A DNA stretch of 39,627 nucleotides from Candidatus Solincola daggyaiensis (GTDB lineage Bacteria; Actinomycetota; Geothermincolia; Geothermincolales; RBG-13-55-18): NCBI GenBank assembly GCA_015711825.1, contig JACVJD010000019.1, forward strand, positions 1-39,627. Direction: 5' to 3'. The notes under the pieces are model-generated. The model had not been told where the DNA came from, ran no database searches, and saw only the letters and a list, made by a program, of their open reading frames with translations. Both the position numbers and the translations under genes were made by a program. Shown here in pieces: positions 21,793 to 38,751 of this stretch (position 1 is the stretch's first letter; every line of letters starts with the position of its first letter).

Positions 21793-22518
21793 ATGCTTAA
21801 CTTAAATAACATAATAGAGTTGTTGTTTCCAGTGAGGTGCGCGGGTTGCGGGGAATACCTCCGCAGGCCGATATGCCCGCGATGCAACGCCGCCATACGG
21901 CGGGTGAGCGGGCACACCTGCTCGCGGTGCGGCAAACCCACCGCATACCCCGTGGACGGGTGCCTGCAGTGCGGAGCCCACATGAAGACGGTCGACCGCG
22001 CGGTGGCCATGGCGGTTTATGAGGAGCCGCTGCGCTCCGTTATCCATAAATTGAAATACGGCAACGGATGGAGGCTGGCGGCCCCGCTGGGGGCCATGGC
22101 GGCGGCCAGCCTGGCTCCCCATCTGCTCTCTGAGCGGCCGGTGGTGACCTTCGTGCCCATGCATTTCCGCAAGAGGAGAGAGCGCGGCTACGACCATGCC
22201 GAGAAACTCGCCGCCGGGGTGGCGCGCGCGCTGGGACTCGAGGCGGTTCCGCTGCTGCAGCGAGCCCGACCTTCCCCCGCGCAGGCCTCCCTGGGATACG
22301 CGGAGAGGCGCCTGAACGTGAGAGGGGCCTTCAAACCGAGGCCGGCGGCGGAGCGGTCGTGGGAGGTGGTGGTGGTTGACGACGTGCTCACCACGGGGTC
22401 GACCATGGCGGAATGCGCTGCCGTCCTCAAGACGGGAGGGGTGCGGCGGGTGGTGGCGTGCGTGCTCGCAAGGGACGTCCTCGATACGGGACAGGCGGCG
22501 CGCTACCGCGCGGGTTGA
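21793..22518 (+). CDS. comF: ComF family protein (double zinc finger + phosphoribosyltransferase)
   Basis: RCAGCGEYLRRPICPRCNAAI...CSRCGKP...CLQCG; PRPP motif VVVVDDVLTTGSTM. Confidence 0.93.
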   Translation: MLNLNNIIELLFPVRCAGCGEYLRRPICPRCNAAIRRVSGHTCSRCGKPTAYPVDGCLQCGAHMKTVDRAVAMAVYEEPLRSVIHKLKYGNGWRLAAPLGAMAAASLAPHLLSERPVVTFVPMHFRKRRERGYDHAEKLAAGVARALGLEAVPLLQRARPSPAQASLGYAERRLNVRGAFKPRPAAERSWEVVVVDDVLTTGSTMAECAAVLKTGGVRRVVACVLARDVLDTGQAARYRAG

Positions 22519-22729: not shown

Positions 22730-22981
22730 ATGCGGACGGAGGCAAGACGGGGCGGCAATGATCCGCGCATCATCGCCGGGGTGAGAGGCGAAAGGGCATA
22801 TCCCGATTACATGCAGACGGCGCCGTTCGCTTTGGTGGGGGGATTGCTGGATCCGCCCGAGGTGCGTGCGGAATTGGTCGCTTATCTGAAGAGCGCCATC
22901 ACCCACCATCACTACCACGTTCCGGTGGAGCTGGTCGCGCAGAGCATCATCGAATGTTGGGCCCCCTGCCTGCATAACTGA
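22730..22981 (+). CDS. FlgM-like anti-sigma-28 factor
   Basis: 83 aa; RAELVAYLKSAITHHHYHVPVELVAQSIIE fits the FlgM C-terminal pattern (V-x-x-L-K-x-A-I-x(4)-Y-x-V-x-x-E-x-x-A-x-x-I/L); gaaggaggtc SD; located between comF and hpf. Confidence 0.6.
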   Translation: MRTEARRGGNDPRIIAGVRGERAYPDYMQTAPFALVGGLLDPPEVRAELVAYLKSAITHHHYHVPVELVAQSIIECWAPCLHN

Positions 22982-23186: not shown

Positions 23187-23192
23187 TATAAT
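23187..23192 (+). promoter_or_regulatory. -10 box TATAAT upstream of the structured RNA
   Basis: Exact TATAAT ending 1 nt before the 5' arm of the terminal helix; no convincing -35. Confidence 0.5.
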
Positions 23193-23193
23193 G

Positions 23194-23448
23194 AAAGGGG
23201 AAGGCTTTGGCCCGGGTCTGTGGTTGAAAGTCGATGCCAGCCGCAGGCGAAACGACCCACGTAAGCCAACTCTTGGTTGGTGAGCATGGTGCGGCTTAGG
23301 GGTAAGTCCTGCCCGGCGTAAAGCTGGAGAAGCGTAGTAGTGGAGGGCCAGGGATCTTTCCGAAGAAGAGCCCGCCCTCTGCGAGCCGTTCAGCAGGCGA
23401 GTGTGGGGGCAAAGACCAGGTCAGCCGGGTTCCGAGGCCTTCCCCTTT
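23194..23448 (+). ncRNA. Large structured RNA upstream of hpf/raiA; probable raiA-motif RNA
   Basis: 5' arm AAAGGGGAAGGCTTTGG (23194-23210) pairs over 17 bp with CCGAGGCCTTCCCCTTT (23432-23448; two G-U), extended by CCCGG/CCGGG (23211-23215/23425-23429). Internal hairpins include CCAAC-TCTTG-GTTGG, AAGCC/GGCTT and GGAGGGC/GCCCTCT. Position directly before the raiA/hpf gene. Confidence 0.75.
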
Positions 23449-23564
23449 ATCCGTCCGCATGTTGGCACGGGATCGATGGTGTGTTAGGCTAATGCGAGTC
23501 GGAGCAGGGAATCCGGGCCAAGGCCCGGGCATGTGCCGGCCTTACATAACGGTCTCTGTGAGGG

Positions 23565-23597
23565 CCCATACCGCAACCAACCTGGTATGGGTTTTTT
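23565..23597 (+). terminator. Rho-independent terminator between structured RNA and hpf
   Basis: CCCATACC (23565-23572) / GGTATGGG (23584-23591) followed by TTTTTT (23592-23597). Confidence 0.85.
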
Positions 23598-23622: not shown

Positions 23623-24165
23623 ATGCAGATGATCGTCAAAGGGAAAAACCTGGAGGTAACGGACGCCCTACGCTCATACGCCCAGGAAAAGGTGGGCAAG
23701 GTGGAGAAATACCTCGACCGCATCACCAAGACGGAGATCGAGATGAGCGTGGAGAAGAACCCCAAGATCCCCGACAACCAGGTGGTGGAGGTCACGGTTT
23801 TCTCCAGCGGCCCGGTGATAAGGGCCAAGGAATCGGCCACGGATATGTACCAGGCCATAGACCTGGTGGCGAACAAGCTGGAACGCCAGGCGCGTAAGGT
23901 CAAGAAAAAGCTCATCGACCGCTCCCACCACGCCAGGAACCCTTTGAAGGAGGCGGCCTTGGAGGGGGAGGAGGAGGAAGCGGAACCGGTGATCGTGAAG
24001 ACCAAGAGCTTCCCCCTCAAGCCCATGACCCCCGAGGAGGCCTGTCTGCAGATGGACCTGGTGGGGCACGATTTCTTCGTCTTCGTCAACGCCGAGACGG
24101 AGGAGACCAACGTGGTTTATCGAAGAAAGGATGGGAACTACGGTTTGATCGAGCCGGGAGGTTGA
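23623..24165 (+). CDS. hpf: Ribosome hibernation promoting factor, long form (HPF/RaiA)
   Basis: MQMIVKGKNLEVTDALRSYAQEKVGKVEKYLDRI; C-terminal domain KSFPLKPMTPEEACLQMDLVGHDFFVFVNAETEETNVVYRRKDGNYGLIEP; start at 23623 rather than 23533. Confidence 0.95.
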   Translation: MQMIVKGKNLEVTDALRSYAQEKVGKVEKYLDRITKTEIEMSVEKNPKIPDNQVVEVTVFSSGPVIRAKESATDMYQAIDLVANKLERQARKVKKKLIDRSHHARNPLKEAALEGEEEEAEPVIVKTKSFPLKPMTPEEACLQMDLVGHDFFVFVNAETEETNVVYRRKDGNYGLIEPGG

Positions 24166-24250: not shown

Positions 24251-25882
24251 ATGGGAGAGGGAAACTCTATGGACATCAAGGCTAAGGCGTTGGCGGCGGT
24301 CGGCTTGGCCGGCTCGCTGGCGATCATCCTCATCCAGACCCTGGCGCGGGAGGTGCCGGTGTTCTGGTTCTCGGTGGTGGTCCTCGGCGCCCTCCTGGTG
24401 GTATGCGAGACCATGGGGGAGAGGATGGCCTCGGGGGGGCGCTCCACCTACGGCATCATCGTCATCTTCGCCGCCATAGCCTCCCTTAACACTCCCTCGG
24501 CCATGCTCGTGGCTCTCTGCGGAGCTTTCCACCTGCGCATGTTCGAGCGCCGGCAGGACGCGTGGGAGCTTGCCCTCGCCGGCTCCGTCTACGCCCTCTG
24601 CGCCTGGGTCTCGTCCGCCGTGTATCACGCCCTGGGGGGCGCCTCCAGGGCCTTCACCTTTTCAGGCGCCATGCGTTCCCTGCTGCCTCTGCTGGTGGCG
24701 GCGGGGGTCTTCTGGGCGCTGAACGCCCTGGCCATGGCCGCGATCCTGCGCTGGCGGGACGGCGTGGAGCCCGCGCGCTTTCTTGTCGGCGATGCCCTGC
24801 GCCTGCTCCCCAACCATTTCCTCTACGCCCTCATCGGCCTGGGCATGGGAGTGATCTACGCCCAAAACGCTTTCCACGTCGCCCTCGACCTGGAGGGTAG
24901 GCCCTTGCTGGACGCGGGGGGCAACCAGGTCATCCTGGGCTCGGTGGCGGAATCCCTTCGCGGCCTCTTCGCGGTCATGGCCCTTACGGCCATCCTGGGC
25001 GTGGCGTGGTATTTCAGCGGCAAGAACATAACGTTACTGGAATCGTACGACCGCAGCATGGAGGTGCTTGTCACCCATCTGGAGAAGCGCGAGCCCTACC
25101 TGGACGGCCACGCGGTGAGGGTGGCGGAGCACGCGGCGCGCGTCGCCGGGAGGATGCGGCTTCCCGTGTACGAGGTCAGCCGCCTGCGCCACGCCGCCCT
25201 CCTGCATGACCTGGGACGCCCGGCCATCCCGCGCGAGATACTGCTGCAGAGGGCGACCCTGAGCGCCGAGGAGTTCGAGCGCGTCAAGTCGCATCCCCTG
25301 GAGGGCGCGGCCAGGCTGGAGGAGGTCTCCTACCTCGCGGATATGGCGGAGGCGGTGAGGCACCATCACGAGTACTATGACGGCGGCGGCTACATAGACG
25401 GCCTCAAGGGGGAGACCATTCCCCTCTCCGCCCGCATCCTGGCGGTGGCGGACGCCTACGACGCCATGCTGCATCCTCGCCCGTGGAGGGAGGCAAAGTC
25501 CCGCGAGGCGGCGATAGCCGAGCTGCGCGAGAACGCGGGGCGTCAGTTCGACGCGGAGATAGTGGAGCATTTCATCGCATCCATACAGGAGGAGGAAGAG
25601 CGGCGGGAAAAGGAAACGCCGCCGGCGACCGCTGCTCCGGATGAAGGCGGGGCTGCCGTGGGGGAGATGCGTCAAGTGGGGGGCGAGCCTGGGGAGGAGC
25701 GGAAAAGCAAGCGCAGGGCGAAACGCCGCGAGGAGGTCCTGCGGGAGCGGCGCGAGGCGCGGGAGCGCCTGGAGCGGGAGGCCATGATGCGTCTGGAGGA
25801 AGAGGGCGGCGCGGCCCCGGCGCGGCATGAGGCGGCGGAGGCGGGCGGATCCGCTCCCGGAGAGGGTGGGGAGGAGCTATGA
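24251..25882 (+). CDS. Membrane HD-GYP-like domain protein with a charged C-terminal tail
   Basis: N-terminal TM region; AALLHDLGRPAIPREILLQRATLSAEEFERVKSHPLEGA...RHHHEYYDGGGYIDGLKGETIPLSARILAVADAYDAM (GYP is GYI); Arg/Glu-rich tail. Confidence 0.85.
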   Translation: MGEGNSMDIKAKALAAVGLAGSLAIILIQTLAREVPVFWFSVVVLGALLVVCETMGERMASGGRSTYGIIVIFAAIASLNTPSAMLVALCGAFHLRMFERRQDAWELALAGSVYALCAWVSSAVYHALGGASRAFTFSGAMRSLLPLLVAAGVFWALNALAMAAILRWRDGVEPARFLVGDALRLLPNHFLYALIGLGMGVIYAQNAFHVALDLEGRPLLDAGGNQVILGSVAESLRGLFAVMALTAILGVAWYFSGKNITLLESYDRSMEVLVTHLEKREPYLDGHAVRVAEHAARVAGRMRLPVYEVSRLRHAALLHDLGRPAIPREILLQRATLSAEEFERVKSHPLEGAARLEEVSYLADMAEAVRHHHEYYDGGGYIDGLKGETIPLSARILAVADAYDAMLHPRPWREAKSREAAIAELRENAGRQFDAEIVEHFIASIQEEEERREKETPPATAAPDEGGAAVGEMRQVGGEPGEERKSKRRAKRREEVLRERREARERLEREAMMRLEEEGGAAPARHEAAEAGGSAPGEGGEEL

Positions 25883-27240
25883 ACGAGAAGCGCCTCAAGG
25901 CCCTTCGCGTCCTCTCCGCCCTTCTTTTCCTGGCGGTGATCGCGGCATGCTTCCCCTTCGTGAAATGGGGGGATATCGACCCCGCGCGCACCTTCGGGCT
26001 TGCCGCCGTCCTGGCCTTTTTCGAGGCCTGGAGGATACAGTTCCCGTGGGGCAGGCCGTTGCGTCTGGGAATGGCGGCCATCCTGTGCGTGATCGCCATC
26101 AGGCCGCTTCCGGAGGCGGTGTTCATCTTCCTGCTCGGGAGCCTGGCGGGCAGGGCTTTCTCGCGCCTGCAGCGCTCGGGCGAGGGCGACCTTATGCACA
26201 TCGTCCAGCGCACCTATATCGTCGCCCTGGCGGGGATAGTCTATCGCCTGGTGGCCTTCGCGGGGTGGGATATGACCTGGAATCCCTACCCGGCATACTT
26301 CGGCAACCTGCCTGACGGCAACGTTTACCTGACCTATTTCAACCCCGTGGTGCTTCACCGCGCCCTGGTCTTTCCGGCCGCCTTCCTGGTCATGGCCCTG
26401 GTCTTCTACGTCGGGGAGGTGGTGACCTCCTCGGTGGAGACGGGGATCCTGCTGGCCGGCAACTGGCGGGTCATCCTGCCCCAGCACATGCGCCAGACCT
26501 TCCCTGCCTACCTGGCCATCACCGGCGCGGGGGCTCTCACGGCCCTCTATTTCCCCCGCTTGCCTTGGTTCAACTTCCTCCTCTTCCTGTTGCCCCTGCT
26601 CCTGGTGCGCGCGGAATCCAACCGCGATAAGGAGCTGGATGAGCGCTACTTCCAGACCATGCGCATCATCGGCGACGCCTTCGACCTGGCGCGCGGCATG
26701 CCTGGGCACTCGGGAAGGGTCAGCAACCTGGCGGCGGAAGTGGCGCGGGAGATGGGGGTCTCCGCCGAGGAGACGCGCAACATCCGCTACGCCGCCGCCC
26801 TGCACGATATCGGGCGCATCGAGCAAGAGGGCGATGAAGAGGCGCAGGGCCACGCGGAGAGAGGGGCGGAGGTGCTGGAAGAGGTCCCCAGACTGCGCCC
26901 CATAGCGCATATCGTGCGCCATTCCCATCCCTTGCCGGAGGAGGAAGGCGGGGCTACCAGGGTTCCGCTGGGAGCGAAGATAATAGGCGTGGTAAGCGAT
27001 TTCGACGCGCTCACCAACCACTCCAAGCGCAAGCTGCCGCAGCGGGAGGCCCTGGAGGAGATGGGCCTGGAGCGCGGCAGGCGCTACGATTCCATGGTGT
27101 TGCGCACCCTCTCCCAGGTGCTGGAAGCCCAGTCCAGGGCACGCCGGCGCCCCGAGCGCGAGATCAGGCAGCGAGCCAGGGTGCTGGAGGAGGAGGAACT
27201 CAAGGAGAGCCTGGAGGAGATCTTCCGGGAGGAAGAATAA
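25879..27240 (+). CDS. Membrane HD-domain protein (diverged HD-GYP paralogue)
   Basis: ATGA overlap with the preceding gene; multi-TM N-terminus; GMPGHSGRVSNLAAEVAREMG...YAAALHDIGRI...AKIIGVVSDFDALTNH; no GYP motif. Confidence 0.8.
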   Translation: MNEKRLKALRVLSALLFLAVIAACFPFVKWGDIDPARTFGLAAVLAFFEAWRIQFPWGRPLRLGMAAILCVIAIRPLPEAVFIFLLGSLAGRAFSRLQRSGEGDLMHIVQRTYIVALAGIVYRLVAFAGWDMTWNPYPAYFGNLPDGNVYLTYFNPVVLHRALVFPAAFLVMALVFYVGEVVTSSVETGILLAGNWRVILPQHMRQTFPAYLAITGAGALTALYFPRLPWFNFLLFLLPLLLVRAESNRDKELDERYFQTMRIIGDAFDLARGMPGHSGRVSNLAAEVAREMGVSAEETRNIRYAAALHDIGRIEQEGDEEAQGHAERGAEVLEEVPRLRPIAHIVRHSHPLPEEEGGATRVPLGAKIIGVVSDFDALTNHSKRKLPQREALEEMGLERGRRYDSMVLRTLSQVLEAQSRARRRPEREIRQRARVLEEEELKESLEEIFREEE

Positions 27241-38405: not shown

Positions 38406-38751
38406 TGGTGGAGGCGGGGGGAGTCGAACCCCCGTCCAGAAATCCGGCCGGGTGGGCTCTACGAGCGTATCCGCCGCTGCTTTTTTCGCCGCCGGTTCGC
38501 CCGGCGGAGGGCTTGCCGGCGGCTATCCCGTTAGGGTTTTCCCTCGGCCTTTACGGGAGTGGGGCCTCGGTGATCCCGCTTCATGACGCCCCTTCCCCGG
38601 TCGCGGGCCTCCCGGAGAGGAACGGGCCGCTTAAGCAGCCAGAGCCAACTCGCTGTCGGCGTCTATCGGTTTTCCCGCTTTTTAACGAGGCTCGGGTCCC
38701 CGGCTCGCTCCCGCGCCGGCCGCCGATCCCTGTCGAAGCCGTTTCGCCCCC
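38406..38751 (-). ncRNA. ssrA: tmRNA
   Basis: Minus strand 5' GGGGGCGAAACGGCTTCGACAGGG, 3' GGGGGTTCGACTCCCCCCGCCTCCACCA; acceptor GGGGGCG/CGCCTCC; resume region CGTTAAAAAGCGGGAAAACCGATAGAC-GCC; tag ORF ADSELALAA-TAA; adjacent smpB. Confidence 0.95.

Follow-up and report, generated by a model that had tools for sequence, protein, structure and literature searches.

Knockouts of the raiA-motif RNA, also known as ModT, have been published for C. acetobutylicum and C. difficile, as have several cryo-EM structures (PMC11706538, PMC11751092, PMC12286853), so that the class is no longer functionally unresolved, as a preliminary description of the present locus had put it. In C. difficile the RNA is an abundant, stable transcript that acts in trans and occurs in long and short forms (PMC11706538). 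The commonest gene order reported for raiA RNAs has comF upstream and hpf downstream (PMC11706538).

The window, meaning the whole stretch of 39,627 nucleotides that was analysed, contains a raiA RNA directly upstream of hpf in a genome of Candidatus Solincola. As the RNA has already been described, with structures and knockouts, this copy adds a member to a known class. What appears to be new is the part downstream of it, a putatively attenuated hpf leader that would offer a point at which the control of ribosome hibernation could be tested; a literature search found no relevant report on attenuation of hpf. Overall, we consider it likely that the locus combines a free-standing raiA RNA, its ends sealed by the P1 helix, with an adjacent hpf unit gated by termination.

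Gene content and order

The genes and the RNA of the locus follow the order comF-raiA-hpf:

21793–22518, + strand: comF-family gene, the usual upstream neighbour of the raiA RNA; DZR_2 and Pribosyltran above their cut-offs, TIGR00201 below its cut-off
23199–23450, + strand: raiA-motif (ModT) RNA, predicted short form of about 250 nt; recognized by its RF03072 match and by covariation, both ends predicted
23623–24165, + strand: hpf, long-form ribosome hibernation-promoting factor; PF02482 and PF16321 (S30AE N- and C-terminal domains), TIGR00741 at 100.8 bits

The hpf gene was the sole S30AE gene found in the genome, and its named relatives come from Actinomycetota assemblies including Candidatus Solincola and Candidatus Geothermincola, in the class Candidatus Geothermincolia. 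Between comF and the raiA RNA lies an 83-aa ORF (22730–22981, + strand) with a marginal match to the FlgM anti-sigma-28 family (25.9 bits, cut-off 25), which is also present in some relatives. Directly after hpf are two tandem HD-domain genes (HD_5; 24251–27240, + strand), kept in most relatives whose fetched loci extend that far; in the first, the HD-GYP motif reads HHEYYDGGGYIDGL, with GYI in place of GYP. ModT influences c-di-GMP levels in C. difficile (PMC11706538), so the proximity of these HD genes may exceed chance. A tmRNA gene was also identified in the window (38406–38751, − strand; RF00023, 153.1 bits).

Identity and structure of the raiA RNA

A cmscan search against all of Rfam gave a single match in the region, to raiA (RF03072) at 23207–23433 (+ strand), which spanned model positions 1–209 of 209 and scored 175.4 bits, well above the cut-off of 101.3. 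What had been proposed as a probable raiA-motif RNA is thus a member of that class. Among 59 genomes sampled from genus to phylum level, 40 had the RNA, in a single copy apiece.

Covariation was assessed on an alignment of these 40 homologues, using a structure written down from the RNA of the window. Paired cells made up 88.4 % of the alignment, compared with 78.6 % for shuffles and 32–46 % when one strand was slid, and two-sided changes were present at 43 of the 61 pairs. None of 500 shuffles matched the alignment on any of five covariation measures. This strong covariation extended to the pseudoknot pk-1, formed by the following strands:

23239–23245, + strand: 5′ strand of pk-1, AGCCGCA, in the P3 loop; 7 pairs with TGCGGCT, covariation
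23290–23296, + strand: 3′ strand of pk-1, TGCGGCT; pairs with AGCCGCA, covariation

Across the 40 sequences, 99.3 % of pk-1 cells were paired, with two-sided changes at 4 of its pairs. The same geometry, joining the P3 loop to the pk-loop, has been resolved in the clostridial RNA by cryo-EM (PMC11751092). The minimum free energy of the region was −122.4 kcal/mol (z = −3.3), below that of all 200 shuffles. The RNA would be expected to fold into the conserved pseudoknotted core.

Predicted promoter and ends of the raiA RNA

The elements that delimit the RNA are as follows:

23187–23192, + strand: −10 box TATAAT of P_raiA, present in 14/14 family genomes; −35 box not recognizable
23199–23215, + strand: 5′ strand of the P1 helix, GGAAGGCTTTGGCCCGG; pairs with 23425–23443
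23425–23443, + strand: 3′ strand of the P1 helix, with the pyrimidine run CCTTTATC directly after it

The TATAAT reported earlier at 23187 is at that position. No consensus −35 box was found before it, the best candidates agreeing at 2/6 positions in the window and at 1–4/6 in relatives, and the perfect, conserved −10 box is consequently the sole basis of the promoter call. The spacing between TATAAT and the 5′ arm of P1, GGAAGG(C) or its equivalent, was 6 nt in 13 of the 14 family genomes and 8 nt in the other (rows L005 and L018 of this count were read by eye). This suggests that P_raiA transcripts would begin with the P1 helix, at about 23199.

The start position bears on the 17-bp pairing of the ends that had been noted previously, in which AAAGGGGAAGGCTTTGG pairs with CCGAGGCCTTCCCCTTT, followed by a 2-nt bulge and then 5 further pairs. 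The pairing is present, but its outermost 5 pairs (AAAGG/CCTTT) probably fall outside the RNA, given the spacing between TATAAT and P1; the spacer sequence that holds them varies between relatives.

At the other end, the U-tract just past P1 is weak in the window and far stronger in relatives such as L001, L021 and L023. P1 together with the pyrimidine run may act as a weak terminator and form the short-form end of the RNA. The predicted 3′ end would then lie either just past P1, giving about 250 nt, or at a downstream terminator reached by read-through, giving about 400 nt.

Promoter and leader of hpf

The interval from the raiA RNA to hpf is 190 nt in the window. Read from its sequence, it appears to be mostly a control region of hpf itself, beginning with these two elements:

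23462–23490, + strand: P_hpf (P2), TTGGCA-17-TAGGCT, with a TG-type extended −10; position and sequence conserved in the family
23513–23528, + strand: hairpin CCGGGC-CAAG-GCCCGG of the hpf leader, observed in the window

TTGGCA with a spacer of 17–18 nt was present in 11 of the 12 leaders that bear the terminator hairpin described below, and the extended −10 in all 12. The strict pattern of the relatives (TATG before the −10 box) had no match in this genome with one mismatch allowed, as the window's own site departs from that pattern in two or more positions. A looser pattern gave one exact match in the window, with 2.5 matches of two or fewer mismatches expected by chance, so it is positional conservation, and not a rare sequence, that supports the assignment of P_hpf. 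We predict that hpf is transcribed from this promoter inside the gap. The preliminary description had left the choice between a free-standing non-coding RNA and termination control of hpf; the second conserved promoter favours termination control of hpf, alongside the free-standing RNA.

The hairpin at 23513–23528 was found as claimed, and similar CCGGG...CCCGG or CCGGG...CCAGG hairpins occur in two genera and are absent from others. Because P_hpf precedes both this hairpin and the terminator, the two are parts of the hpf leader. Taken in its full length, that leader folded no better than shuffles (z = −1.1), and a scan of it against Rfam at a permissive threshold gave no element and no ligand-binding domain.

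Predicted terminator upstream of hpf

The last element before the gene is the following:

23565–23597, + strand: predicted intrinsic terminator or attenuator of the hpf leader, CCCATACC-N11-GGTATGGG-TTTTTT; stem conserved in the family

It is present where it had been placed, ending 25 nt ahead of the hpf ATG (23623). The stem CCCATACC/GGTATGGG was identical across 12 of the 14 family genomes. All 17 of the 17 aligned stem columns (GCCCATACC plus GGTATGGG) were invariant in these genomes, which belong to four genera, whereas just 4 of the 47 fourfold-degenerate sites of hpf were invariant. The loop varied in sequence and in length (8–12), and a U-run followed the stem in every case; an RNA hairpin therefore fits better than a DNA operator, and the palindrome was not taken for an operator. 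Eleven family genomes have the stem once each. This genome has it twice, with the additional copy (C14:30907) inside a glycosyltransferase-like reading frame and taken as chance.

Individual terminators folded moderately better than shuffles (0–8 of 60 shuffles equally good), and RNAalifold on the 12 leaders detected the terminator hairpin alone. For L029 the top-scoring candidate of the terminator scan was another hairpin, 77 nt before the ATG, and the conserved hairpin is also there. Genus g3 (G004 and G008) had neither the conserved stem nor another terminator before hpf, so the hairpin is not essential family-wide. In L017, from G012 only, a long inverted repeat, CCCAGGCATAGGGGTCGGCCCTGGGCTTATGCC with its near-complement, is inserted between the terminator and hpf.

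The position of the terminator, after P_hpf and 25 nt before the start codon, means that transcription reaching hpf, whether from P_raiA or from P_hpf, has to pass it. No promoter-like sequence fits in the 25 nt between the U-run and the ATG, so that hpf mRNA must arise by read-through if the terminator is real. Such dependence suggests an attenuator, which would hold hpf expression low until read-through is allowed. A duplex-energy search with the hairpin arms revealed no alternative, antiterminator-like pairing that consistently beat shuffles.

Termination itself needs no fixed stem sequence. The invariance of the stem exceeds what termination would demand and hints at a further, sequence-specific reading, for example as the binding site of an RNA-binding antiterminator or autoregulator. 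This would refine the attenuator model and is compatible with it, and we regard it as a possibility of somewhat less than even weight. The unchanged stem in the four genera, set against nearly uniformly variable fourfold-degenerate sites, speaks for it; order-level relatives, on the other hand, have other stem sequences at the same position, which would make any recognition family-specific.

The terminator could instead be merely the 3′ end of the raiA unit, generating the long isoform and insulating hpf, which would then be expressed by leakage or chiefly from P_hpf, the terminator contributing little regulation. ModT(L) of C. difficile does stop at a downstream intrinsic terminator (PMC11706538), and the weak U-tract beside P1 in the window makes a back-up terminator plausible. 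P_hpf, however, lies upstream of the terminator, so that insulation would block the gene's own promoter too. The spacing also argues against it. From the end of the stem to the hpf ATG the distance was 31–33 nt in 11 of the 12 hairpin-bearing genomes, L017 with its inserted repeat being the exception, and that from the P_hpf −10 box to the stem was stable at 64–76 nt, while the gap between the raiA RNA and hpf in the same 12 genomes ranged from 186 to 487 nt. The terminator thus travels with hpf and not with raiA, and we consider a mere raiA 3′ end unlikely.

Changing connection between raiA RNA and hpf

Among relatives, the raiA RNA and hpf remain neighbours and, judging from their sequences, the connection between them differs by lineage. 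At the order level, G015, G016 and G017 had terminators of other sequence 31–32 nt before hpf. Relatives from the other families of the class carry an additional gene between the raiA RNA and hpf; it is cold-shock-like and has a promoter-like sequence of its own, as in L004 (ORF 1888–2091, with the motif KGFGFI). A near-constant hairpin, GCAACCCCATT...TGGGGTTGT, was observed between the cold-shock-like gene and hpf in L004, L008, L011, L015, L021, L022 and L023, its U-run sometimes absent. Five members of other classes have hpf beginning 35–54 nt beyond the RNA, with no terminator found in between; the short gap without a terminator suggests that the two are likely co-transcribed in those five.

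A raiA RNA near hpf was not found in 70 of the 80 loci fetched (mostly Lachnospiraceae), a figure that is not evidence of absence, the profile being sequence-only and built from actinomycetote sequences. G003, of the same family and 92 % complete, had neither a raiA RNA nor an hpf gene that could be found; with the two being neighbours, one assembly gap could account for both absences.

In the lineage of the window, hpf is served by a promoter and a stop signal of its own, and the link between raiA and hpf is accordingly not one of obligate co-transcription, which argues against the RNA as a simple hpf riboswitch. A cis-acting, riboswitch-like leader read mainly from P_raiA into hpf would accord with the Rfam type of RF03072 (cis-reg/riboswitch) and with the little or no promoter room in the five members of other classes, but it is quite improbable in view of the dedicated promoter between RNA and gene in this lineage, the intervening cold-shock-like gene in many members of the class and the C. 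difficile RNA, which acts in trans and does not have the raiA gene as its downstream neighbour (PMC11706538).

The favoured arrangement of a free-standing RNA beside a termination-gated hpf unit can be extended: in the Solincola group, a dedicated attenuator whose stem is read sequence-specifically by some factor may take the place of the apparent co-transcription of hpf with the raiA RNA seen in other classes. We put this extension forward tentatively and as rather doubtful in its full form.

Comparison with known systems

The RNA of the window resembles other members of RF03072/ModT in its full-length model match, in the covariation of all core helices tested and of pk-1, in having comF upstream and hpf downstream, in its own −10 box and in the P1 pairing of its ends. 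It differs from them in its outer P1 sequence and long P8 arm, which are lineage-specific. By analogy with clostridia, it probably acts in trans. Unlike in clostridial ModT hosts, Spo0A was not found in this genome, so the clostridial sporulation phenotype is unlikely to apply, and the raiA RNA is hereby recorded in a deep, uncultured actinomycetote lineage that lacks a detectable Spo0A.

As for ModT(L) and ModT(S) of C. difficile, two forms are predicted here, the shorter ending near P1 and the longer extending to a terminator further downstream. In contrast to C. difficile ModT, the downstream terminator of the window follows a second promoter and lies directly before hpf; the gene downstream of ModT in C. 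difficile is a PTS-operon antiterminator gene and not raiA/hpf (PMC11706538).

The remaining comparison is with transcription attenuators in mRNA leaders. Unlike typical attenuators, the hpf leader combines an invariant stem sequence with no detected conserved antiterminator or Rfam ligand-binding element. A mutually exclusive antiterminator is typical of attenuators and dispensable where a factor acts instead. Like such attenuators, the leader consists, as far as its sequence shows, of a promoter, about 70 nt of leader and an intrinsic terminator right before the ribosome-binding region.
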